In this document: positions 12,877 to 31,932 of the stretch, in pieces
Layout: every line of letters begins with the position of its first letter
Numbering within the stretch: position 1 is the stretch's first letter
Assembly: GCA_028874195.1 (NCBI GenBank)
Contig: JAPPLM010000009.1
Location: 1-62,803, forward strand
Direction of reading: 5' to 3'
DNA: 62,803 nt
Source: Chloroflexota bacterium
GTDB lineage: Bacteria > Chloroflexota > UBA11872 > VXOZ01
Translations under genes and position numbers: made by a program
Notes under the pieces: model-generated
The model's input: only the letters and a program-made list of their open reading frames with translations
Told to the model about the DNA's origin: nothing
Databases searched by the model: none

Positions 12877-13098
12877 CTATTGGGTAAACACTTCCAAAAC
12901 GGCCAAGATTGCCACCCCTGCTGCTACCAGTCCACCCAAGCGGATTGTCATGCGTTGCTCCAAGTCTCGGAGGTCAGCCTTCGTAGCTAGTGATTTCCCC
13001 GTTTCGCCGAGAGTATCCAATATAGCCTCCGCCTTTTCCTTGTCAAAGCCAGCCGCAGTCAAACGCTCGAATGCTTTATGCGTATCGATGATTGCCGT
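12877..13098 (-). CDS. DUF1640/CCDC90-like small coiled-coil membrane protein with a non-standard start
   Basis: The frame reads a short helix (DTHKAFERLTAAGF), a coiled coil with LATKADLRDLEQR, and a C-terminal membrane segment of about 18 residues. This is the layout of bacterial DUF1640 (CCDC90-like) proteins. The only usual start codon in frame is TTG at 13062, which would remove the conserved IDTHKAFER portion and has no Shine-Dalgarno. The frame stays open upstream to a TAG at 13110-13108. An AGGAG at 13109-13105 is followed after six bases by ACG (13098-13096), exactly where an ATG would be expected. The gene may therefore use ACG, or it may have lost its start by a single base change. 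It lies just 3' of ispG on the same strand; the stop is at 12877. Confidence 0.55.
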   Translation of the reverse strand, partial: TAIIDTHKAFERLTAAGFDKEKAEAILDTLGETGKSLATKADLRDLEQRMTIRLGGLVAAGVAILAVLEVFTQ

Positions 13099-13117
13099 CT
13101 GCGACTCCTATCGTGGT

Positions 13118-14230
13118 CTAATTCGCAACGGCCCGCTCGGCCTGCTTCTGCGCCACGATCTCATCGACTTCTTCAATAAGCAGATCGAAGAGTTCCTCTT
13201 CCTTGCAACTGCGCACCGGCTTGCCCTTGCGGAAGAGCGCTCCCTTGCCGCGCCCGCCGGCGATACCCACGTCGGCATCGCGCGCCTCGCCGGGACCATT
13301 TACCACGCAGCCCATCACAGCGACTTTCACCGGCTCCTTGACGCTTTGGAGGAAGCTTTCAACGCGCTCCGCCAACTCGATGAGTTCGATTTCGCAGCGT
13401 CCACATGTAGGGCACGCGATGAGGGTCGGCCCGTGCTCGCGCAGCCCAAGCGACTTGAGAATCTCGTACCCGGCAAAGACCTCTTCCGTCGACTCGGCAG
13501 CCAAGGAGACGCGCAACGTGTCGCCAATTCCCTGGTACAGCAGCACGCCAAGTCCCACGGCGCTCTTGACCATACCCGCCTTTGGCGTGCCAGCCTCGGT
13601 GATGCCCAGGTGCAGCGGGTATTCGACGCGGTCGGCGATGAGCTGGTACGCCAGGATCGTCGTCGGCACATCCGAGGCTTTGAGGGAAATCTTGATGTCG
13701 GTGAAGTCCATGTCTTCCAGTATCTTAACGTGGTCGAGCGCGGATTCCACCATTGCCGCCGCTGTCTTCTCGATCTTCTCATCGCCCTCGAGCATCATGA
13801 GCTCGGGGATGAGGCGAGACTCCAACGACCCGACGTTTACGCCGATGCGCATCGGCACCTGGCGGTCCTTCGCTTCTTTGACCACCATGCGGGTCTTCTC
13901 TTTACTGCCGATATTGCCGGGGTTCAAACGCAGCCCGTCCACACCGGCTTCCAGTGCGCGCAACGCCAGGCGATAATCGAAGTGAATGTCGGCAATCACT
14001 GGAATCGGCGAACGCTTGCGGATCTCAGGCAGCGCGTCGGCATCCTCCTTGTGGGGCACGGCCACGCGCACGATCTCGCATCCCGCCTCAGCCAGACCAA
14101 GTATCTCGGCCACGCTCGCTTCTACGTCCCGCGTGAAGGCGGTGGTCATGGACTGCACGCGAATAGGCGCGCCGCCGCCAATGGTGACATCGCCGACTTT
14201 GAGTTGCTTGGAAACACGTCGGGGGATCAT
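13118..14230 (-). CDS. ispG: 4-hydroxy-3-methylbut-2-enyl diphosphate synthase (flavodoxin)
   Basis: This enzyme of the MEP isoprenoid pathway reduces MEcPP to HMBPP using a [4Fe-4S] cluster. The 370-residue bacterial form has the N-terminal TIM barrel with VQSMTT (25-30), ADIHFD (80-85) and LNPGNIG (102-108). The C-terminal cluster domain carries CPTCGRC (C273, C276) and GCVVNGPGEA (C308), with Glu315 as the third-cysteine-linked catalytic residue. It lacks the insert of plant-type enzymes. Neighbours do not belong to the pathway. It is one of the best markers in the window for phylogenetic placement. Confidence 0.96.
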   Translation of the reverse strand: MIPRRVSKQLKVGDVTIGGGAPIRVQSMTTAFTRDVEASVAEILGLAEAGCEIVRVAVPHKEDADALPEIRKRSPIPVIADIHFDYRLALRALEAGVDGLRLNPGNIGSKEKTRMVVKEAKDRQVPMRIGVNVGSLESRLIPELMMLEGDEKIEKTAAAMVESALDHVKILEDMDFTDIKISLKASDVPTTILAYQLIADRVEYPLHLGITEAGTPKAGMVKSAVGLGVLLYQGIGDTLRVSLAAESTEEVFAGYEILKSLGLREHGPTLIACPTCGRCEIELIELAERVESFLQSVKEPVKVAVMGCVVNGPGEARDADVGIAGGRGKGALFRKGKPVRSCKEEELFDLLIEEVDEIVAQKQAERAVAN

Positions 14231-18796: not shown

Positions 18797-20185
18797 TCAT
18801 TCGCTAATGTAAGATTGCAGCCAGTTTTGCGCCTGTTGCGCGGCCTGCTCCACGCCAATCTCTCCGCGCGCCAGTGGCAGTGTCAGATTCTTAAGAAGCC
18901 AGCTATTGATTGCATTGCTGCTCGCCAAGTAGGACGGGTGCGCAGTGCTGAGGATATCAAGGATGACTTCCCGCTGATGTTCGAGAAAGAGAAGATCAAG
19001 ATGATCTCTTGAACCTGGCGTCGAGATGTACTTCAGGCTAGATTTGACAGTTGGCAAACGACTGCGTTCACCAAAATGCAGAGCCAGGGGAGCCAACACC
19101 TGGTACGAGAGGTCAAGATCTCTTGCACCCGCGGGAATGGCGGTCACATCAAAGAGCATAAGCGGCGTGCCTGCCATCGGCCCTGCAGGGATGGACGCCA
19201 CTTCACGGTCACCAGTACTGCTGATCTCAAAGGCAGTTTGAAAGAGGATGCCAGTCCGGTTGGCACGATACGGGCGACGGATTCCCGGAGGGTGAGATGA
19301 AATCACTTGCCCATAGGGCATAATCTTGTGCTCACGTCCGAGTTCATCCCAAAAGTTAAGCCCGCGCAATGCCGCTGGATCGGTAAGGCGAACTGCACCA
19401 GTTTCCAAGTCAACAACGTCTTTGCCTGTCTCCTGCAATACGAAGGGCAGCCAGTCTGCATAGTAGTGGCTAATGCCAAAGCCCCACTGGTCCACTGTGC
19501 CATCGCCGTTCGTATCCTGCGTGAGTTGCTTTGCGGCAGCGACAAAGTCATCACGCGTCCAACCCAACTGCGGTGGGGCAACATTTGCCTGGGAGAAGAA
19601 GTCGGGAAGATACTGGGCTACGCCAGCGGTTACCCTGGTTGGCAGTGCCATCGTCTGTCCCTGATATCGTACAAGCTTGACGGATTGAGGAAAAAACTGT
19701 TCCAGAGGTTGGTTTGCGTCATTCTGAATGAAGCGATCTAAGGGTTGCAGGAGATTGCTCTTAAAGAGCCACGGAAAGTCAGCCAGCCAGGCAAATACCA
19801 TCAGGTCCGGCACCGTACCTGCAGAGACACTTGCGGAAAGGGCAGCAGCTACTGCATCCTGTGTGGCTTCTAGATTTCCAGTGCTAGAAAACGTCAGTTC
19901 AGCCTCTTGCAGTTCAATATTGGCTGGGACACCAGCCACTCTACCCTCATTCAACTGACGAATTGCCCCCAACATCGGGCCCTGTCTGCGAAACATGGCA
20001 AGTGTCACTATCTCTTTTTCTTTTGAGGGTTGCGGCACGGAGCCCTGAGGCGCAGTCGGCGCAGCACGCGCTTCCTGGTCGTCGTCTTCATCATCGCCAC
20101 CACAAGCAGCCAGCAAGAGAAGCTGAGCACCGAGCAGTGCCCGTCCAAGCCATTCTCGCCTTGTCAGTCGTTTAGCTATAGTCAC
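18797..20185 (-). CDS. Orphan extracellular solute-binding lipoprotein (paralogue 1)
   Basis: The 462-residue family-1 type ABC solute-binding protein has a twin-arginine-like start (TRREWLGRALLG), a hydrophobic stretch and a lipobox LLAAC at about 24-28, followed by a D/E-rich linker. The mature part carries an EF-hand-like loop DTNGDGTVDQWGF, as in other members of this cluster, plus the WLPFVLQE and DPAALRGL segments that follow it. The C-terminus is LPLARGEIGVEQAAQQAQNWL. The start is GTG at 20185 with GGAGG six bases before it. It is the last of four tandem paralogues; no permease or ATPase of an importer is adjacent. The ligand is unknown, possibly a carbohydrate. Confidence 0.85.
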   Translation of the reverse strand: MTIAKRLTRREWLGRALLGAQLLLLAACGGDDEDDDQEARAAPTAPQGSVPQPSKEKEIVTLAMFRRQGPMLGAIRQLNEGRVAGVPANIELQEAELTFSSTGNLEATQDAVAAALSASVSAGTVPDLMVFAWLADFPWLFKSNLLQPLDRFIQNDANQPLEQFFPQSVKLVRYQGQTMALPTRVTAGVAQYLPDFFSQANVAPPQLGWTRDDFVAAAKQLTQDTNGDGTVDQWGFGISHYYADWLPFVLQETGKDVVDLETGAVRLTDPAALRGLNFWDELGREHKIMPYGQVISSHPPGIRRPYRANRTGILFQTAFEISSTGDREVASIPAGPMAGTPLMLFDVTAIPAGARDLDLSYQVLAPLALHFGERSRLPTVKSSLKYISTPGSRDHLDLLFLEHQREVILDILSTAHPSYLASSNAINSWLLKNLTLPLARGEIGVEQAAQQAQNWLQSYISE

Positions 20186-20341
20186 TCGAATCCTCCGGCT
20201 AGCTTAGCCACAAGAAATGTGTTAAAACGTCACTCTTTGAAATGCATTCCGTTGTTCAATAAGCGTTCAGGAAACCGTTTGAGACCGATCCACATTTGGG
20301 CACCGGCGTTTCATTGAATAGGGTCCAGACAAACGGACCGC

Positions 20342-21745
20342 CTACGGCTCATTCAGGTTGGACTCCAGCCAGTCCTGCCCCCGCTGGGCTGCCTGCACAA
20401 CATCCATCTCGCCGCGCGCGAGGGGTAGCGTCAGTCTTTCGAATAATTCAAACGTCATGGAGAAGCTGCTCGCTAGTTGCGATGGTCTGGCGGTATCGAG
20501 CAGGTGAAAGACGAGCTCCCGGTCATAGGGCGGCAACATGAGATCCAAATAGCCGGTGCTGGGCTTTTCTATATGCTGCTGTCCCGCGATTACGGGTGGC
20601 ACGAGGAGACGCGAACCTAGATCAAGCGCGAAAGGCACTAGAGTCTCGTAGGAAAGGGCGGGATCGGGCGCGACGAACGGGATTGCCGCAGCCTGTGACA
20701 CCGATAGCGGCGTTACGTCCCGCGGCCCGGCCGGCAACGGGGCTTGTTGGCCCGCCAGCATGTTGCTGGGAGGAACGTACCGGAAAAAGAGAATGCCGTT
20801 AAGCAGGGTAGTGAAGTCAACATCGAATTGGTCTGCCGTCACTGTCGCGCCATAGGGCATGATGCCGTGCACGCGCCCCAGTTCGTCCCAAAATTGCAGC
20901 CCGCGCAGCGCCGCCGGATCCGTAAGACGCACAGTGCCAGTGTGTGGGTCGAGAATATCCTTGTCCAGTTCCTGCAAAACAAACGGCAACCAGTCTATGA
21001 AGTATCTATTTGGATTGAATCCCCACTCATCCACTGTGCCATCACTGTCGGTATCCTCGGTCAATTTTTGAGAGGCGGCGACAAATGCCTCACGGGTCCA
21101 GCCCTTTTCAGGTAAAGGCAGTCCGGCATCTGCGAATTGCTTAGCTTTGTACCGTGCCACGCCGGCCTCCAGCGCGATGGGCAGGGCCATCGTCTGATTT
21201 TGATAGCGGACCAACTCCAGGGCAGGGGGAAGGAACTTCTCTGAAGGCTCCGAGCGATCTTGCTGCAAATACCGGTCTATCGGCTGGACAAGCCCGCTGC
21301 GCAACACCCAGGGAATGTCGAAAAAGATGCTAACCAAGAGCAGGTCCGGCGGCGTGCCGGCAGAATCCTGCTCGCTCAGAAACGCCGAGAGTGCAACCTG
21401 CGCGCCTTTGATGAGTTCCAATGGGTCGCGCGGTCTCCCGATGTTTATCCGGACGCGCTCCAATTGAACGTCTTCCGGCGCACCTGGCACTGCACCTGCA
21501 TTCCACCGCTCAATGGCATCGTCGACAGCCCTGGCGTACCCGTCCTGCGTGGCGGCCAGCCGCAGCGTTACGGGCTCTCGCGAGACCTTTGGCACAGCGG
21601 CCTGCGGCGCCTCCGGCGCCGAAGCCTTCGGAGCATCCGGCGCCGCGCGTGGCTGATCTTCGTCATCGTCATCACCGCCACAGGCGACTAGGAGCACTAT
21701 CTGTGCACCCACGAGCGTGCGACCGAGTATTTCTCGTCTAGTCAC
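20342..21745 (-). CDS. Orphan extracellular solute-binding lipoprotein (paralogue 2)
   Basis: The 467-residue protein shares layout with its three tandem neighbours: a TRREILGR Tat-like motif, lipobox LLVAC, a DDDDE-rich linker followed by an Ala/Pro spacer, and the loop DTDSDGTVDEWGF. It also has DWLPFVLQELD, DPAALRGLQFWDELGRVHGIMPYG and a C-terminal LPLARGEMDVVQAAQRGQDWL. The start is taken as GTG at 21745, eight bases after AAGGAGG; an in-frame TTG at 21751 lies only two bases from that site. About 155 bases separate it from paralogue 1, enough room for a separate promoter. The ligand is unknown. Confidence 0.85.
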   Translation of the reverse strand: MTRREILGRTLVGAQIVLLVACGGDDDDEDQPRAAPDAPKASAPEAPQAAVPKVSREPVTLRLAATQDGYARAVDDAIERWNAGAVPGAPEDVQLERVRINIGRPRDPLELIKGAQVALSAFLSEQDSAGTPPDLLLVSIFFDIPWVLRSGLVQPIDRYLQQDRSEPSEKFLPPALELVRYQNQTMALPIALEAGVARYKAKQFADAGLPLPEKGWTREAFVAASQKLTEDTDSDGTVDEWGFNPNRYFIDWLPFVLQELDKDILDPHTGTVRLTDPAALRGLQFWDELGRVHGIMPYGATVTADQFDVDFTTLLNGILFFRYVPPSNMLAGQQAPLPAGPRDVTPLSVSQAAAIPFVAPDPALSYETLVPFALDLGSRLLVPPVIAGQQHIEKPSTGYLDLMLPPYDRELVFHLLDTARPSQLASSFSMTFELFERLTLPLARGEMDVVQAAQRGQDWLESNLNEP

Positions 21746-21920
21746 AAGCAAGACCTCCTTAATTCCTAACGAGACATTTAGTCGCCGATAAACTAGAGTG
21801 AGAGATCAGCTCTGCAGTTAAGGGTCTCTCAACCTCGGTACAATTTTCGCATGGGTTGAAGAACCGCCCCACAAGAATTGATGCTTCTGCGCGCAAGGGA
21901 CTCCTCCGCATCCTTGTACG

Positions 21921-23303
21921 CTACTTGCTGAGGTAGGATTGCAGCCAGTCTTGCGCCTGCTGCGCAGCCTGCTCCACGCCCACCTCTCCGCGCGCTAGCG
22001 GCAGTACCATCCTTTCAAAAAGCTGATACGTCATGTAAAAGCTCGTCGCCAGCAAGGATGGACGGGCAGTATCGAGCAGGTTGAGGACCAGTTGCCGTTC
22101 GTATTCCGGCAACACGAGTTCCAGATAGTCCGCACTGGGATTCTGAATGAACTGCTGTCCCGCAATCACGGGCGGCAAGGAGAGACGCTCTCCCAAGGTC
22201 AGTGCCAGGGGCCTCAATGCTGCATAAGACAGAGCCGCGTCGGAGGCAACGGTAGGAATTGCCAACGCTCCGTTGAGCATCAATGGCGTACCCTCCCTGG
22301 CCCCGCCCGGCAGTGGCGCCTGTTGGACGGGCGAGCTCTGACTGGGAGGCAGGAAATTCCAGAAAAGAATACTAGTGTCTAGGGGCGCAGAGTTAGCGCT
22401 AAAGTGGTCCGCAGTTACCGTTGAGCCATGTGGCATGACGTTGTGCACTCGGCCCAAGTCGTCCCAGAACTGTAGGCCGCGCAATGCCGCCGGATCCGCG
22501 AGGCGAACGACGCCCGTGTCGAGATCAACCACATCTTCGTCCATCTCCTGCAAGACGAAGGGCAACCAATTCGCGAATAAGTAAATGGGCCGGAATCCCC
22601 ACGCATCCACCTTGCCGTCGTCGTTTGTATCCCGTGTCAGACGTTGGGCAGCCTCGACGAATTCTTCGCGCGCCCAGCCCTTGTCCGGCAAGGAAATGCC
22701 CGCATCGGTGAATTGCCTGGGATTGTACCGCGCTATACCAACATCCAAGGCTATCGGCAGCGCCATCGTCCGGCTATGGTAACGCACCAATTCAAGCGCG
22801 GGTGGCAGGAATTCCTCCAATGGTTCCGTCTGGTCCTGCTGCAGGTAGCGGTCAAGAGACTGGATAAGGCCGCTGCGAAAGACCCAGGGAAAGTCAAAGT
22901 ACCGATTGAACACGATCAAGTCCGGCGGCGTGCCGGCAGAATCCTGCTCGTTCAGAAAAGTAGTCGCTCCGGCTTGGGCCCGCTCGGTGAACGCCAGAAC
23001 ATCACTCGATGGCGCTACCCTCGGACCTTCCACTTGCTCTAGTTGGATGTCTGCGGGAGCGCTGGGGACCCCGCCCTCGTTCCACTGCTCGACAGTCCGC
23101 TCGACAGTACGAGCAAACTGGTCTTGCACTGAGGCGAGCCTCAGTTTCACGGAATCGCGTGTGCCCTTGGGAACTGAGGCCTGCGGCGCCGTCGGCGCAG
23201 CGCGCGGTTGCTCCGCCTCCTCTTCGTCATCGCCGCCACAAGCGGCTAACAGGAGCACTTGCGCGCCAATGAACGCGCGGCCAAGTAATTCACGTCTCGT
23301 CAT
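21921..23303 (-). CDS. Orphan extracellular solute-binding lipoprotein (paralogue 3)
   Basis: The 460-residue protein has a TRRELLGRAFIG start, lipobox LLAAC and an acidic linker. It carries the Ca-type loop DTNDDGKVDAWGF, NWLPFVLQEMDEDVVD and DPAALRGLQFWDDLGRVH. The C-terminus LPLARGEVGVEQAAQQAQDWLQ is nearly identical to that of paralogue 1. The ATG at 23303 has GGAGG eight bases upstream. By eye paralogues 2, 3 and 4 are the most alike. The gaps of 150-175 bases on both sides contain no permease gene. Divergence is mostly in the middle ligand-facing parts, which suggests different ligands for one scaffold. Confidence 0.85.
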   Translation of the reverse strand: MTRRELLGRAFIGAQVLLLAACGGDDEEEAEQPRAAPTAPQASVPKGTRDSVKLRLASVQDQFARTVERTVEQWNEGGVPSAPADIQLEQVEGPRVAPSSDVLAFTERAQAGATTFLNEQDSAGTPPDLIVFNRYFDFPWVFRSGLIQSLDRYLQQDQTEPLEEFLPPALELVRYHSRTMALPIALDVGIARYNPRQFTDAGISLPDKGWAREEFVEAAQRLTRDTNDDGKVDAWGFRPIYLFANWLPFVLQEMDEDVVDLDTGVVRLADPAALRGLQFWDDLGRVHNVMPHGSTVTADHFSANSAPLDTSILFWNFLPPSQSSPVQQAPLPGGAREGTPLMLNGALAIPTVASDAALSYAALRPLALTLGERLSLPPVIAGQQFIQNPSADYLELVLPEYERQLVLNLLDTARPSLLATSFYMTYQLFERMVLPLARGEVGVEQAAQQAQDWLQSYLSK

Positions 23304-23475
23304 GAGATGAGCCTCCGTATGTCTACATGGAACCCTGCTTTGCCGCTGAAGCTTTCAGGCTCCAGCTTTGATATCAGATGCTTCTACCCCGGCTACGGGT
23401 ACCACGCCAACTGGCGAACACTTCTCTGAGACCAGTTCCCTTGAGCCGGAGGGGTGCGGCAACTCACACGGTACG

Positions 23476-24945
23476 TCACCGGTTCAAATAGGCTTGCAGC
23501 CAGTTCTGCGCTTCTTGAGCGGCTTGTTCTACCGCCACTTCACCACGGGCCAACGGTATCGAGAACTGCTCAAACAACTGAAAGAGCATCGTAGCGCTAC
23601 TGGCGAGATGCGAGGGACGGCCAGTTTGGAGCAGCCACAGTGCAAGCTGCCGTTCGTGTTCGGGCAGCAAGAGCTCGATATAACCACTGGTGGGATTCTC
23701 AATGAACTCTTGGCCGGAAATCACCGTCGGTAATAAGAAGTGTTCGCCCAAGTAAAGCGCGAGCGGCGCCAGTGCTTCATAGGACTTTGCGGTGTCCCGA
23801 GCACCGGCCGGAATGGCCAAGCAGGCGCCCAACATCAACGGCGAGACGTCCCGCGGTCCGGCAGGGAGTGGGGCTTGCTTGCCCGTAGCGGTACTGCTGG
23901 GCGTAGCAAAGTAGTAGAAGAATGTGCTGGGATGCCGATTCCAGAATGGAAACCTGAAAAGATCAGCCGTTACGTCGGCGCCATGGGGCATAATGCCATG
24001 TTTATTCCCCAATTCATGCCAGAACTGCAGGCCGCGCAGAGCCGCGGGGTCCAAGAGACGCACCTCGCCGGTGTTCACGTCTACCACGTCCCTGTCCAAT
24101 TCCTGCATGACGAATGGCAGCCAGTTTACGAAATTCCATATCGGTCGAAAGCCCCAGGAGTCGATCTTGCCGTCATTGTCGGTATCCTGCGTGAGCCGCA
24201 GGGCTGCGGCTATGAACTCTTCACGAGTCCAGCCGTTATCGGGCACAGGCAGGCCTGCATCCTCGAAGTGCTTAGGGTTGTACCGCGTCACGCCGGCGCC
24301 CAGGGAAACGGGCAGAGCCATCATCTGGCCCCGAAAGCGCGTCAATTCCAAGGCCGACGGCATAAACCTTGCTGATGGATCATTGCCGTCTTGCTGTAAA
24401 AGACGATCAAGTGGTTGGAGAATGCCGCTGCGGAAGGCCCAGGGGAAATCAAAGAGACGATTGACTATGAGCAAGTCCAACGGCGTACCGGCAGACTCCC
24501 GCTCGGCTAAAAACGTCTGAGCTCGCTCTTGTATATGCTCAGTAGTCTCCTCTGGTCCGCCTCGCGAGGAAATCTGAATCGTGAGGCGTTCTAGTTGGAT
24601 GTCCTCCGATGCGCCGGGGAACTCACCCCTATTCCACTCGTCAACGGCCTTGTCTATCACAGGAGCGAATGAAACCAGCATCGAGGCGAGCGTCAGTGTA
24701 GTCGGCTCGCCCGCCGGTTTCGGCAGCGAAGCCTGTGGCGCGGTTGGCGCGGCGCGCGGTTGCTCCTCCTCGTTCTCGTCACCGCCTCCGCAAGCAGCCA
24801 ACAGCACAACCTGTGCCCCAATGAGAGCACGCCCAAAGAGTGCCCGGCGTGTCAGCGGTCTTGTCCCGGTCGGTGCCGCATTTGAATTATCCGGAGATGG
24901 CGATGTCTTTGGATAAAGCAAAGCACGCGGTTCTACCGCACTCAT
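23476..24945 (-). CDS. Orphan extracellular solute-binding lipoprotein (paralogue 4)
   Basis: The 489-residue protein differs from its neighbours by a preceding extension of about 30 residues rich in Pro, Ser and Asn before the Tat-like LTRRALFGRALIG segment and lipobox LLAAC. The mature part has DTDNDGKIDSWGF, NWLPFVMQELDRDVVD, DPAALRGLQFWHELG and the C-terminal PLARGEVAVEQAAQEAQNWL. The start at ATG 24945 follows AAGGAG by seven bases; an in-frame TTG at 24966 has no such site. It is the first of the tandem array, 336 bases downstream of the histidine kinase gene on the same strand. An extended n-region is compatible with Tat export. Confidence 0.83.
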   Translation of the reverse strand: MSAVEPRALLYPKTSPSPDNSNAAPTGTRPLTRRALFGRALIGAQVVLLAACGGGDENEEEQPRAAPTAPQASLPKPAGEPTTLTLASMLVSFAPVIDKAVDEWNRGEFPGASEDIQLERLTIQISSRGGPEETTEHIQERAQTFLAERESAGTPLDLLIVNRLFDFPWAFRSGILQPLDRLLQQDGNDPSARFMPSALELTRFRGQMMALPVSLGAGVTRYNPKHFEDAGLPVPDNGWTREEFIAAALRLTQDTDNDGKIDSWGFRPIWNFVNWLPFVMQELDRDVVDVNTGEVRLLDPAALRGLQFWHELGNKHGIMPHGADVTADLFRFPFWNRHPSTFFYYFATPSSTATGKQAPLPAGPRDVSPLMLGACLAIPAGARDTAKSYEALAPLALYLGEHFLLPTVISGQEFIENPTSGYIELLLPEHERQLALWLLQTGRPSHLASSATMLFQLFEQFSIPLARGEVAVEQAAQEAQNWLQAYLNR

Positions 24946-25281
24946 GCGGAAACTCCTTGTTCGCAAATTACTCTCCCAAGCGGGAGAAACCCCTTTCTCA
25001 AGTATCTATCGGCTCAATTGCAACGTCAAGGGGTGTAACGGGCCGAGGCGCAAGAGACCGCCTCAGCAAGGGTCTAAAGAAAGCGCTAAAGAGAACGCGC
25101 TTAGTGGCGGCGAATCTGTCACCAGGAGCGCCGGTGTTTGGTAGCCTGAGTGGAGCTTTGCCTTCCCATTGCCTTCAAGCGGTTCGCCAGAAACTGCACA
25201 GACAATCCGCTCGCAACACGCTGTCGCAGCGCGAACGGCTTATCTTGCTCAAGGAAAGGCTATGAGGAATCTACGGGAGGT
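24946..25281. other. 336-base spacer between histidine kinase gene and binding-protein array
   Basis: There is no convincing gene. It has a small hairpin with arms CTCCC and GGGAG near 24972-24986. The spacer is large enough for a promoter driving paralogue 4, and it separates the two-component genes from the array. Confidence 0.4.
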
Positions 25282-26706
25282 TTACCAATCGAGCGGCAGA
25301 GTAAACGTGAATTTGCTGCCTTTATCAAGTGTGCTCTCCACGCGAATGGCGCCGGCGTGCGCCTCCACCAACTGCTTGGCGATGGTCAGTCCCAGCCCCA
25401 CGCCGCCGGTGCTGCGGGTGCGCGAGGGATCGACGCGGTAGAGCCTATCGAACACATGGGGCAGCTCATCGCTGTGAATGCCTTCGCCGGTATCGGCAAC
25501 CGTCACAGAGACAGCTTCTTCACTTTCTTCGATAGACACGTCAACGCGTCCTTCAGCGGGCGTGTGCGCTATTGCGTTCTGCAGGAGATTGCTCATGACT
25601 TGCTCAATGCGCGTGCGGTCCATGTTCACTTGGCGTTCTGGCGTCGCGCGGTCAGGGCCAGGAGCGAACGTGATAGTTATCCCTTTCGCCTGCGCCTGGG
25701 GGCGGAACGCATCCAGCGAGCGCGCCACCACCTCGCTGAGAGAGGCCGGTGCAAGATCAAGCTGAAAGTCGGCTGCCTCGGTCTCCGCAAGTAAACGCAA
25801 GTCTTCGATCAGATTCGAGAGATGCATCGTCTGTTGGTGGATGTTCTGAATTGTCGCCTCATCGGCCTCCAATACTCCATCCTGCATCGCCTCGACATAG
25901 CCGCGGATGTTCGTAAGCGGGGTCCGCAATTCGTGAGCCACGTCAGCAACCATATTGCGGCGCTGCCGCTCGGCGTTCTCAAGGCCTTCGGCCATGGCAT
26001 TGAACGTGCTTGTCAGTTCTCCGATTTCGTCTCGCCCAGAGACGGCAACCCGTTGCGAAAGATCGCCTTTGCCCAATTCTTGGGCCGCGTCCGTCAGTCT
26101 GCGCACCGACCGCAGCATCCTGCGCGAGAGCAACGAGACGAGCAGAATGCCTCCCAGTCCCGCGCCAAGACCCGACCACAGCAGCGACCGGAAGGCGGTA
26201 TCGGTGAACCGCCGCAGTGAAGGCTCTTGAATTTCACGCAACGCTTCTCCTTGAACAGGGCCCCGTGCCGGGACTCGGTATGGTCTAAACGTCGGTCGTG
26301 ACGCCGCCGGTCCCACGAGGATAGAGGCTACGTGACCGCCGTCTACAACGATGCGCGATGTCGTGTAGTCTTCCTTCTCACGGGGACGATCACCTCTACT
26401 CGACCGTTTCGCGGCAACGATAGGATCGCCTGCCGTGTCGAGGAGGGCGATGTCTCGTCCCGTCAGATAGCTCACCCGCTCGACAGTGCCCGCGACACCG
26501 CTCCAATTACCTTTGGCCGCATAGTACTCAGTGAAAGCTTCGTGAATTCTGGCAAGAAGGGCCTCGTCCGAAGCCTTGCGCACATCCCGCACCTCGCGTT
26601 CCGCCGCAAGGCCGCTATACATGCCAACCGCCGCCAGCGCCAACATGAGTACGAAAGCGAAGGCGACGATGAGACGAAACTGGAGGCTGAAGAACCACCT
26701 AGTCAT
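25282..26706 (-). CDS. HAMP-domain sensor histidine kinase
   Basis: The 474-residue kinase has a first membrane helix at about residues 10-30 and an extracytoplasmic sensor region of about 140 residues with no domain I can name. A second membrane helix (about 175-195) precedes a HAMP linker (to about 245), an H-box VADVAHELRTPL with phospho-acceptor His258, an N-box NLLQNAIAHT, and G-boxes DTGEGI and GGVGLGL. It overlaps the response-regulator gene by eight bases, so the two are made together. The position between the RND/DUF2680 genes and the binding-protein array suggests envelope or nutrient sensing, but the signal is unknown. Confidence 0.93.
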   Translation of the reverse strand: MTRWFFSLQFRLIVAFAFVLMLALAAVGMYSGLAAEREVRDVRKASDEALLARIHEAFTEYYAAKGNWSGVAGTVERVSYLTGRDIALLDTAGDPIVAAKRSSRGDRPREKEDYTTSRIVVDGGHVASILVGPAASRPTFRPYRVPARGPVQGEALREIQEPSLRRFTDTAFRSLLWSGLGAGLGGILLVSLLSRRMLRSVRRLTDAAQELGKGDLSQRVAVSGRDEIGELTSTFNAMAEGLENAERQRRNMVADVAHELRTPLTNIRGYVEAMQDGVLEADEATIQNIHQQTMHLSNLIEDLRLLAETEAADFQLDLAPASLSEVVARSLDAFRPQAQAKGITITFAPGPDRATPERQVNMDRTRIEQVMSNLLQNAIAHTPAEGRVDVSIEESEEAVSVTVADTGEGIHSDELPHVFDRLYRVDPSRTRSTGGVGLGLTIAKQLVEAHAGAIRVESTLDKGSKFTFTLPLDW

Positions 26707-27385
26707 TGCTAAATCTATACCCTACGCCGTAGACGGTTTGAATGTGGTCCGGACCTTCCAAAGGCCTGATCTTGCGCCTAATGTTGGCCACGTGGGCGTC
26801 CACCGTCCGGTCGAACCCCTGAAAGTCGAACCCAAAGACCCGGTCTATGATCTGCTCGCGCGAAAACGTCCGTTCCGGCTCTTTGATGAGCATGACGAGG
26901 ATGCGAAACTCAGTAGGTGTGAGGGACGCCTTTTGGTCGTCCACCAGAACCGTGCGGCGATGAAGGTCGACAGTGACGCCATTCCACGCCACCTCCGCCG
27001 GGCCGCGTTCGAGTTCATCCTTGGCGGTACGGCGGAGCACAGCCCTGATTCTTGCTGCCAACTCCCGCGGACTGAAAGGTTTGGTCACGTAGTCATCCGC
27101 GCCCAAGTCCAGCCCCCTCAGCCGATCCTCTTCCTCGACGCGAGCTGTCACCATGACAATTGGCACGGTGGATTCCTGCCGCAGTGTGTGGCAGACCTCA
27201 ATACCGCCTAGCTTCGGCAGCATCAGATCCAAGACGACCAAATCGGGCCGCGCCTTTCTGGCTAGCCGCAAGCCTTCGATCCCATCATGGGCACACAAGA
27301 CTTTGTGCCCGTCGCGTTGTAGGTAGAGGCTGACGAGCTTGACGGTGTCGCGATCATCTTCGACTATCAGCACCGTGCTGGCCAT
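26699..27385 (-). CDS. OmpR/PhoB-family response regulator
   Basis: The 228-residue protein has a receiver domain with the acidic pair ED (9-10), phospho-acceptor Asp53 in VLDLMLP, Thr80 and Lys102 in TKPF. A winged-helix DNA-binding domain follows from about residue 130, ending in the family-typical RTVDAHVANIRRKI segment and a final GVGYRF. The ATG at 27385 is chosen because it begins the conserved STVLIVEDD; sequence further upstream in frame is not conserved in character. It is the first gene of the pair, and its stop lies inside the start of the kinase gene. Confidence 0.94.
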   Translation of the reverse strand: MASTVLIVEDDRDTVKLVSLYLQRDGHKVLCAHDGIEGLRLARKARPDLVVLDLMLPKLGGIEVCHTLRQESTVPIVMVTARVEEEDRLRGLDLGADDYVTKPFSPRELAARIRAVLRRTAKDELERGPAEVAWNGVTVDLHRRTVLVDDQKASLTPTEFRILVMLIKEPERTFSREQIIDRVFGFDFQGFDRTVDAHVANIRRKIRPLEGPDHIQTVYGVGYRFSND

Positions 27386-28568: not shown

Positions 28569-31500
28569 TCATCCCGTGATCTCCACTCGCTCGATGGGAG
28601 ACCGGCGCAGCGAACCTCGGCGGAACAGGCCGGGTATGCTCTGGTTTGCCAGTGTATAGACCACAGGCACGACCAATAGTGTCAGAAACGTCGAACTCAC
28701 TAAGCCACCGATGACGACCGTCGCCAGTTCTGCTCCCAGGATGCCGCCCGAATCCTCAGAGAATGCCGCCAAGGGGATTAGGGCGAAACTCGTTGTAATG
28801 GCGGTCATCAGGATGGGCCGCAGCCGAATGCGCCCGCCCTGCATGAGCGCATCGTACACACTCATCCCGCGCTCCCGCAGTTGCTCCACAAAGGACACGA
28901 GCACCACGGCGTTGGTGACGACGATACCAATCAGCAAGAGTATCCCCATCATCCCCGGCAGGCCCAGCGAACGACCGGTAATCGCCAGCGCCGCCAGCGC
29001 GCCGATCAAGGCAAGCGGCAGGCTGGTTACGATGACGAATGGGTTCCGCAACGATCCGAGGCTGCCGACCATTACGAGGTAGACCAGCACCACGCCGACG
29101 GCCATGGCTATGAAGATGTCCTCAAAGCCTTCCGTGATCTGCGAAAACACGCCGGCGTTGGTCACCGTCACACCCGGAGGCAGGTCGAGAGCGTCGATCT
29201 TCTCCTGTATCAGTGCGCCAATTGCCTGTGTGTCATCTACGGTAATGTCGCCGCTGATTCCTGCCGACCGCAAGCGGTCGGTGCGATTGATAGCAACGGG
29301 CCCTTCTACTACCTCCACCGAAGCAATGTCACTCAGGGAAGCGATACCCAACGGCCCGGCAATTATCAGCGACCTGATGGTCTCAACACTGTTGATCCTA
29401 TCTGCAGGCCCACTCAAGATCACGTCTACCGGGCTGCCGTCTACGTCGATCTGCGTGACGGTCTGACCCACCAGGAACTGGTTGATTTGAAAAGCCACCG
29501 TCTGGGTGCTCAAGCCGAGCGCGGCAGCACGCTCAGGATCAACGTTAACAATCACCTCATCTCGCGCATCGCTTACATCGCTGGTAACGTCTTCGATACC
29601 CTCAATAGACTGTAGTTCGCTGGCGAGCAGGAGTGCAATGGGCGCAATTTCGCGATAATCGTTGCCGGTGATACTGATCTCCAAGCCGGCGGCAGGAGGC
29701 CCGCCACCAACATCCACAATGGTAACCCTGCGGTCAGCCGTGGTTGGCAGCCGCTGGCGGAGAATGTCAACGATGTTTTCCGGTACATCCTCCTTCAGTT
29801 GAACGAACGTGGAAGACTCGTTGAAACCAGTAGTGAAGCTTTGAGCCGACGCGCCGGCAGCGGCGCCGACAGTAGAGCTATAAATGGCCGAGAACTCACT
29901 AATCTGGTCCTCCAAGGCGATGACCTCGTCAAGAGTGGATTCCGCGCGGGCGCCTGGCGGCAACTCCATGTTGATGGTGACAAATTCAGTGTCCCCGGAT
30001 GAAAAGAGGTTTATCGGGATGAAGCGCAGCAACCCAAAGCTGCCTCCGGCGATCACGATGGCCGCCAGCAGCGTGAGCGTCTTGTGCCCAAGAGACCACC
30101 GCAGCATCGGCACGTAGATGCGCTGCATCCACGTATTCGTCTCCGGGAGTTCCTCTACTTCGCCCGCGCCTTCGGGGAGATCGCCCGGGCGCAGCAGGTA
30201 GGCGCCCAATACGGGCACCGCTGTCAACGCCACCACGAGTGAAGCGATAAGGGCAAAACTGACCGCCAACGCAAAGGGGAAGAAAAACGCTCCAACCAAA
30301 CCCTGGATAAAGGCCAAAGGCGCGAATACGACAATCGTTGCCAACGTGGAGGCGGTAATGGCGGGACCTACTTCCACGGTTGCATCCAACGCAGCGCGCC
30401 AGCGCTCCCTGCCGCCCTCGATATTCCGGTAGACGTTTTCCAGCACCACAATACTGTCATCTACCACGCGGCCGACAGAGATAGCCAGACCACCCAATGT
30501 CATGAAGTTCAACGCTAGGCCTTGCCAGTTCATGAGCAAGACGCCGGTGAAGATACTGAGCGGGATGGACAGGACAATAACCAGCGTCGGCCGCAAGGTC
30601 CGAAAGACGCCCCTGAAGACACTCGGACGCACCGTTAGGAAGAAGGCAAAGACGACGATTGAGGCGAGTGTTAGACCCAAAACCGCCTCGCGCTCCAGCG
30701 TGTCGATTTGTGCCTGGATTTGAGGTCCATCGTTGTAGACGATGATCACGTCAACATCCGGCGGCAGAATATCCAGGTCTGCCAGGGCTTCTTCCACGGC
30801 AGTTGTGACGTCGATCGTGTTGGCGTCCGGCTCCTTGAAGACGGAAATGCCAATGCTGGGCTTGCCGTTCGTGCGCGAGATGCTACGGGCGGTGCCCGCG
30901 CCTAGCTGCACCTCCGCTACGTCGGCTAACCGCAATGGTTGCGGTTGGTCACCTGTCTGCGCTGGCGGACCTGTGGGAGTGCGGGGTATGACCAACTGCC
31001 GCAGATCGTCCAGCGAACCGAATTTGTTGATCGTCTTCACCGGCAGGACTTGACCGTTACTCGTAATAGTCCCACCGGGAAAGGTAATGTTGTTCTCCCG
31101 CAGCGCCTGCGAGACCTGGAACAACGAGATACGCTCTTCCAAGAGTCGGTCCGGGTCTACCGTGATGATGACTTGCTGCTCCACGTCACCTGTGACATCG
31201 ATGCTGGCAATGCCGTCAATGCTGGAGATCTTTGGCAATACGCTGGTCTCTAGGATTTCCTGTAACTCGATTATTTCCCTCTCGCCCGAGACACTAATGC
31301 GCAAGACGGGAATCGAATCCGGGTCTATGCGACCGACATTGGGAGCATTCACACCCTCAGGGAGTGAGACACCGGACACTCTGGAATTGACGATGTTTTC
31401 CGCCTCTTCCATGTCGGTGCCGAATGTGAATGTGGCAATGATGACGGAGAGGTTTTCGTTGGAAATGGACTGGATCGTTTCTAAGCCGTCCATCCCGGCA

Positions 31501-31718
31501 ATCGCATCCTCAAGCGGTACCGTTACGTTTTCAGCGACTGACACCGGATTGGAAGAAGGGTAGAAGGTTGACACCGTGACAATCGGAAAATCCACCTCCG
31601 GAAAGAGCTCTACCGGCAATCTGGTGTAGGTGAATATGCCCGATACGAGCACAAGAATGACGGCGAGAACCGTAACAGAACGCCGGCGCAGAGCAAGACC
31701 TGTGATGAATGCGATCAA
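28569..31718 (-). CDS. RND-family (HAE1-type) transporter, apparently without partners
   Basis: The 1049-residue protein follows AcrB-type architecture: a first helix after FITGLALRRRS, a large periplasmic/extracytoplasmic loop with LPVELFPEVDFPIV, and helices 2-6. These include the proton-relay-like VGRVVDDSIVVLEN near residue 400. A second loop and closing helices ending PVVYTLANQSIPGLF follow. The start is TTG at 31718 with GGAGG five bases upstream; the frame runs on to 31817 in AT-rich, unconserved sequence with no ribosome site. No membrane-fusion protein or TolC-like gene is adjacent. In bacteria with a single membrane such RND proteins act alone on hydrophobic compounds or lipids; that role here is inference. 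Confidence 0.9.
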   Translation of the reverse strand: MIAFITGLALRRRSVTVLAVILVLVSGIFTYTRLPVELFPEVDFPIVTVSTFYPSSNPVSVAENVTVPLEDAIAGMDGLETIQSISNENLSVIIATFTFGTDMEEAENIVNSRVSGVSLPEGVNAPNVGRIDPDSIPVLRISVSGEREIIELQEILETSVLPKISSIDGIASIDVTGDVEQQVIITVDPDRLLEERISLFQVSQALRENNITFPGGTITSNGQVLPVKTINKFGSLDDLRQLVIPRTPTGPPAQTGDQPQPLRLADVAEVQLGAGTARSISRTNGKPSIGISVFKEPDANTIDVTTAVEEALADLDILPPDVDVIIVYNDGPQIQAQIDTLEREAVLGLTLASIVVFAFFLTVRPSVFRGVFRTLRPTLVIVLSIPLSIFTGVLLMNWQGLALNFMTLGGLAISVGRVVDDSIVVLENVYRNIEGGRERWRAALDATVEVGPAITASTLATIVVFAPLAFIQGLVGAFFFPFALAVSFALIASLVVALTAVPVLGAYLLRPGDLPEGAGEVEELPETNTWMQRIYVPMLRWSLGHKTLTLLAAIVIAGGSFGLLRFIPINLFSSGDTEFVTINMELPPGARAESTLDEVIALEDQISEFSAIYSSTVGAAAGASAQSFTTGFNESSTFVQLKEDVPENIVDILRQRLPTTADRRVTIVDVGGGPPAAGLEISITGNDYREIAPIALLLASELQSIEGIEDVTSDVSDARDEVIVNVDPERAAALGLSTQTVAFQINQFLVGQTVTQIDVDGSPVDVILSGPADRINSVETIRSLIIAGPLGIASLSDIASVEVVEGPVAINRTDRLRSAGISGDITVDDTQAIGALIQEKIDALDLPPGVTVTNAGVFSQITEGFEDIFIAMAVGVVLVYLVMVGSLGSLRNPFVIVTSLPLALIGALAALAITGRSLGLPGMMGILLLIGIVVTNAVVLVSFVEQLRERGMSVYDALMQGGRIRLRPILMTAITTSFALIPLAAFSEDSGGILGAELATVVIGGLVSSTFLTLLVVPVVYTLANQSIPGLFRRGSLRRSPIERVEITG

Positions 31719-31932
31719 TGCAGCCTCCGCAGATGTTGTATATAGTCTTCTATACCTAGAGTATACACGATATTTTTTGATCTGTTTCGCTCGCAGCACG
31801 TGAAACCATAGGCGCAACCTCCGTTTGCTTCAGAGAGTGTACGTGAAACCCCTGGCACACGGGTAGTCAGGGGATGGCACACAAAGCTGCAATTCCATGG
31901 CAGTTGGATGCTTTTCTCACCTAATGCGCACG

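Follow-up and report, generated by a model that had tools for sequence, protein, structure and literature searches.

The window, that is, the whole stretch of DNA that was analysed, is the entire contig C4 (62,803 bases) of a 3.5-Mb genome, G000, estimated to be 98.3% complete. On its reverse strand (-), ispG (GcpE; 13118-14230, PF04551 E=7.8e-146) is followed by a CCDC90/DUF1640-like ORF (12877-13098) of 73 codons and a stop, which has a DTHK-type head motif, a putative short coiled coil and a hydrophobic C-terminal stretch. Alignment with the relatives places ACG (13098-13096) in the start-codon position. It lies 19 bases from the ispG stop codon and six bases after a Shine-Dalgarno-like AGGAG (13109-13105), and the open frame that follows, TAIIDTHKAFERLTAAGF...VLEVFTQ, ends at TAG (12879-12877). 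Ribosome site, spacer, ACG and open frame were all re-read as claimed in the original prediction. A start further upstream is ruled out by an in-frame TAG, read directly at 13110-13108. Gene finders that accept ATG, GTG and TTG alone would either overlook the ORF or predict a short form lacking the head. The IspG protein of the window is 97-99% identical to its closest named relatives, which come from metagenome-assembled Chloroflexi/Chloroflexota genomes and mark the source as an uncultured Chloroflexota bacterium. Elsewhere in the window (18800-25005, -) there is a row of four genes of 468-509 codons, stop to stop, and three of them, including one below the cut-off, hit extracellular solute-binding protein families at E<0.001; next to the row are genes for an AcrB-type exporter (28572-31829) and a sensor kinase (25285-26721).

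The genus is represented by six genomes, G000 and five relatives (G001-G005), all of which carry ispG; the ORF behind ispG was taken as the orthologue in each. The ORF is more than a chance open frame: four relatives carry orthologues of 84-93% protein identity in the corresponding position, and the remaining relative has a frameshifted copy there. The G003 copy (ATG, ribosome site GGGAG) and the G002 copy (GTG, weak ribosome site) are intact. The G005 copy has ATG and AGGAG, but its codon 22 is TAG. The G001 copy begins with ATG and has several amino-acid changes and a frameshift at about codon 44. In G004, AGG stands at the start position behind GGGAG, and codons 2 and 3 contain another two changes. 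Comparison of the base at 13097, the check originally proposed, gave T in four of the five relatives (ATG in G003, G005 and G001; GTG in G002) and G in G004. An ordinary start is therefore present at the same codon in four of the five orthologues, as a start-loss would leave it, and the retained ribosome site with proper spacing (AGGAG, six bases) is what an ACG-initiated gene would have. Between the two readings first offered, a rare ACG-initiated gene and a recent start-loss, the second is the better supported: ACG is unique to G000 among the six genomes and recurs in none of the five relatives, the same locus bears a stop in G005 and a frameshift in G001, and other members of the family are broken as well. 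Altogether, four of the six copies at this locus are damaged, in four ways (ACG, AGG, internal TAG and frameshift).

The DUF1640-like label given to the gene holds for the family as a whole: 13 of 14 aligned members match PF07798 (CCDC90-like, DUF1640) at E<=0.01, the best at 4.2e-11, and the family profile matches the CCDC90B chain 6h9m at E=0.0034. The focal protein itself scores 21.6 bits (E=2.2e-4), below the gathering cut-off of 33.5, and formal membership is not claimed for it; its match spans profile positions 1-31, the N-terminal head. A model of the G003 orthologue has helices at 4-15, 20-36 and 46-72, with a mean pLDDT of only 55 (24 aligned sequences). By analogy with CCDC90B and the rest of the family, the protein would formerly have consisted of a small head, a coiled coil and, as its anchor, a C-terminal membrane helix. 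Many members of the family carry a variable number of in-frame coiled-coil repeats (of 11 residues in L132 and 18 in L118; also in L143 and L085), which suggests that length changes by gain and loss of repeats. Yeast DUF1640 proteins are described as having a coiled coil and a membrane segment (PMC7519068).

The protein has been strongly constrained. Among the five copies without frameshift, pairwise NG86 dN/dS is 0.011-0.076 for the nine of ten pairs with a computable dS; G003 and G000, for example, differ by 23 synonymous and 2 nonsynonymous codons. The comparison takes in the part of the ORF between the ACG and the first in-frame TTG at 13062. With G005 as sister, the changes on the G000 branch, leaving aside the ACG, amount to 9 synonymous and 2 nonsynonymous (p=4e-4 if evolution were neutral, with 2.45 nonsynonymous expected per synonymous), and any neutral period occupies at most about 40% of the branch at 95%. 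A star of G000, G004 and G005 gives 14 synonymous and 2 nonsynonymous changes and a limit of about 20%, but it enters five synonymous changes common to G000 and G005 twice, and the count with G005 as sister is the main figure. The choice of sister is unsettled: a three-gene tree joins G004 and G005 instead (IQ-TREE support 55, FastTree 0.97). The synonymous and nonsynonymous counts gave no sign of relaxed constraint on the G000 branch, a result which a start-loss would fit only as a recent lesion. The strong constraint on the ORF thus leaves two options, a recent change to ACG or continued production of some protein. A working ACG does not follow from freshness alone, for the G005 copy with its internal stop appears just as young (7 synonymous and 1 nonsynonymous change besides the stop).

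It is unlikely, on balance, that the gene is still made from ACG, with initiation at a low but useful level by ribosomes that have just finished ispG or by others recruited through AGGAG; the change would then be a deliberate or tolerated down-tuning. The good ribosome site and spacing, the nearby ispG stop and the undiminished constraint on the gene's own branch all agree with such initiation. In an E. coli reporter the level from ACG was in the range of 0.1-1.5% of that from ATG, and in the same work the top zeaxanthin producer has a crtZ that starts with ACG (PMC6925171), so that a weak ACG sufficed in a laboratory construct and can be enough in some settings. Against it stands the lack of conservation, the same codon being AGG in G004 and the G005 gene being interrupted by a stop. 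If ACG does work here, the locus offers a test in nature of how far initiation can do without a proper start codon.

The TTG at 13062-13060 was originally described as the only ordinary start and as lacking a ribosome site. The latter is correct, but two internal codons are better placed: a TTG at 13020-13018 with GGAGG at a 5-base spacer, and an ATG at 12951-12949 with GGAG at a 6-base spacer, both in frame and both possible fallback starts. A conserved short form initiated at TTG 13062, the finding that was to count against the original prediction, is ruled out, as the codon is CTG in all five relatives. The second TTG is TTG also in G005 and CTG in G002, G003 and G004; the ATG is shared by G003, G004 and G005 and is CTG in G002. 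Products from either would be without the conserved N-terminal motif, and the ATG would yield a hydrophobic peptide of 24 aa.

That one of these short forms (coil and membrane helix from TTG 13020, or the helix alone from ATG 12951) is the product that matters, with lesions upstream being tolerated, is very improbable. Both starts have ribosome-like sites at good spacing, and codons 50-73 show 15 synonymous and no nonsynonymous changes among G000, G003, G004 and G005 in the star listing, in which shared changes are counted twice. The head, codons 2-26, is constrained too, however, with 5 nonsynonymous of 24 changes in the same listing (p=5e-7 under neutrality), which speaks against a short form as the only product. 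The pooled-species p-values and the part-by-part counts alike carry the double counting of the star, and the parts of the ORF do not differ significantly (p=0.13 and 0.17, two-sided). Nor is either start conserved in all relatives, and the purine-rich sites before them are simply codons of conserved residues.

The focal gene belongs to an expanded family. Each of the six genomes yields 7-25 matches, versus 0-6 in each of the 35 other genomes of the class that were examined. These are counts of matches, not genes, as a repeat-rich copy can match twice, and the low end, 7 matches, belongs to G005, which is 69% complete. Through N-terminal matches, 72 other members were collected from the six genomes (73 stretches were taken, L098 being without an N-terminal match); at least four further matches lie outside this set (G003:C78:52400, G003:C28:4629, G002:C18:17265 and G002:C27:77175). 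The start position was defined as the codon four before the DTHK aspartate, the same place as the focal ACG. It holds ATG in 51 members, GTG in 7 and TTG in 5. With 63 of 72 carrying one of these codons, the family therefore normally uses ordinary starts, which also weighs against initiation at the focal ACG.

Nine members have other codons at that position, and in four of them (L087, L131, L132 and L152) an ATG lies nearby instead. L096 (TGG) and L129 (TCT) carry frameshifts, so that the codon scored is out of frame; their own start is ATG. Three more are in G000. The member on contig C45 has ATA, with GTG two codons on, and the sole start candidate of the member on C25 is a GTG adjoining the aspartate. 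The member on C27 (L091, 6251-7403) has ACA and no in-frame start before the motif, and its ORF is otherwise open; its ribosome site is weaker than in its closest relatives in G004 and G005, possibly its orthologues, both of which bear ATG, and dN/dS is 0.112 against the G005 relative and 0.124 against the G004 relative. It is doubtful that the small CCDC90-like genes of this genus tolerate non-standard starts, as ACG and ACA in G000, AGG in G004 and perhaps ATA might be read. Were it true, strong protein constraint combined with a drifting start codon would mean that initiation is guided more by the ribosome site and ispG-derived ribosomes than by the start codon.

Broken members number 8 of the 72. 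They comprise the C27 member, the L096 copy on G000:C80 (5954-7169), in which TTTT replaces the TTT of the G004 and G005 relatives just after the start and puts the start out of frame, and six members that a frameshift or stop truncates: G000:C60, G000:C68 (62.6 kb), G003:C24, G003:C74, G003:C5 and G001:C3 (318.6 kb). Damage is more frequent at the focal locus (4 of 6) than among the other members examined (8 of 72; Fisher p=0.004, the copies not being independent). Repair from paralogues, or their mis-assembly, is unlikely: within G000 the top-scoring one is 57% identical over 70 residues, and shorter matches reach 61%.

The ACG could also reflect polymorphism among strains, or an error in the consensus or the assembly of this metagenome-type genome. 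A single-base change that looks fresh and is unaccompanied by decay would suit such an origin, which is nevertheless rated as rather unlikely. Random error is countered by the different lesions that independent genomes show at the same locus, and by a start control on the 33 G000 window genes with at least two usable relatives, in which only the focal ORF was scored without a usable start near its conserved 5' end and the other 32 keep theirs. The control is a loose one: start columns are chosen by vote and sometimes fall far into a gene, any ATG, GTG or TTG before the column is accepted, and relatives whose compared segment contains a stop are omitted. It flagged the focal copies of G002 and G001 as start-less and passed that of G004, all column artefacts, and the focal orthologues were read by eye. 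A true polymorphism is contradicted neither by the differing lesions nor by this control.

The ACG probably means that a single member of a family of small coiled-coil proteins with a membrane anchor, a family both expanded and redundant, has recently lost its start codon. The family would be turning over, and redundancy among paralogues may permit the loss of single copies. The leftover ribosome site could then support at most a trace of full-length protein from ACG or, alternatively, a headless fragment might arise from TTG 13020 or ATG 12951. As the gene's own branch is without relaxed constraint, the loss must be recent. An uncomfortable coincidence, and a point against start-loss, is that several fresh lesions have struck one otherwise conserved locus. 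Fresh lesions with little amino-acid change fit a recent relaxation, or segregating loss alleles captured by metagenome assembly; starts that tolerate change are a less likely cause. Literature searches on ACG and the other possible start codons, MCUR1/CCDC90B/DUF1640, sponge Chloroflexi pseudogenes and start codon loss brought up no report of this case. If start-loss is correct, the locus catches a gene of an expanded small-protein family in the act of dying: across six related species, its copies are variously intact, deprived of a start, interrupted by a stop or frameshifted.

Start-loss pseudogenes are known in general from redundant bacterial families, and the focal ORF resembles them in its changed start, in the ordinary start of its relatives and in the other broken members of its family; it differs in showing no detectable relaxation of constraint yet. 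With genes that use near-cognate ACG starts it shares the ribosome site and its spacing, but the ACG of the focal ORF recurs in none of five relatives and its product is putative. Compared with the PF07798 family (DUF1640; MCUR1/CCDC90B and yeast Put6/Put7), the focal protein is much shorter (73 residues), falls under the Pfam cut-off and belongs to a large paralogous set in which coil length is very variable; the likeness lies in the N-terminal head and, putatively, in a coiled coil and a membrane segment like those of the yeast proteins.
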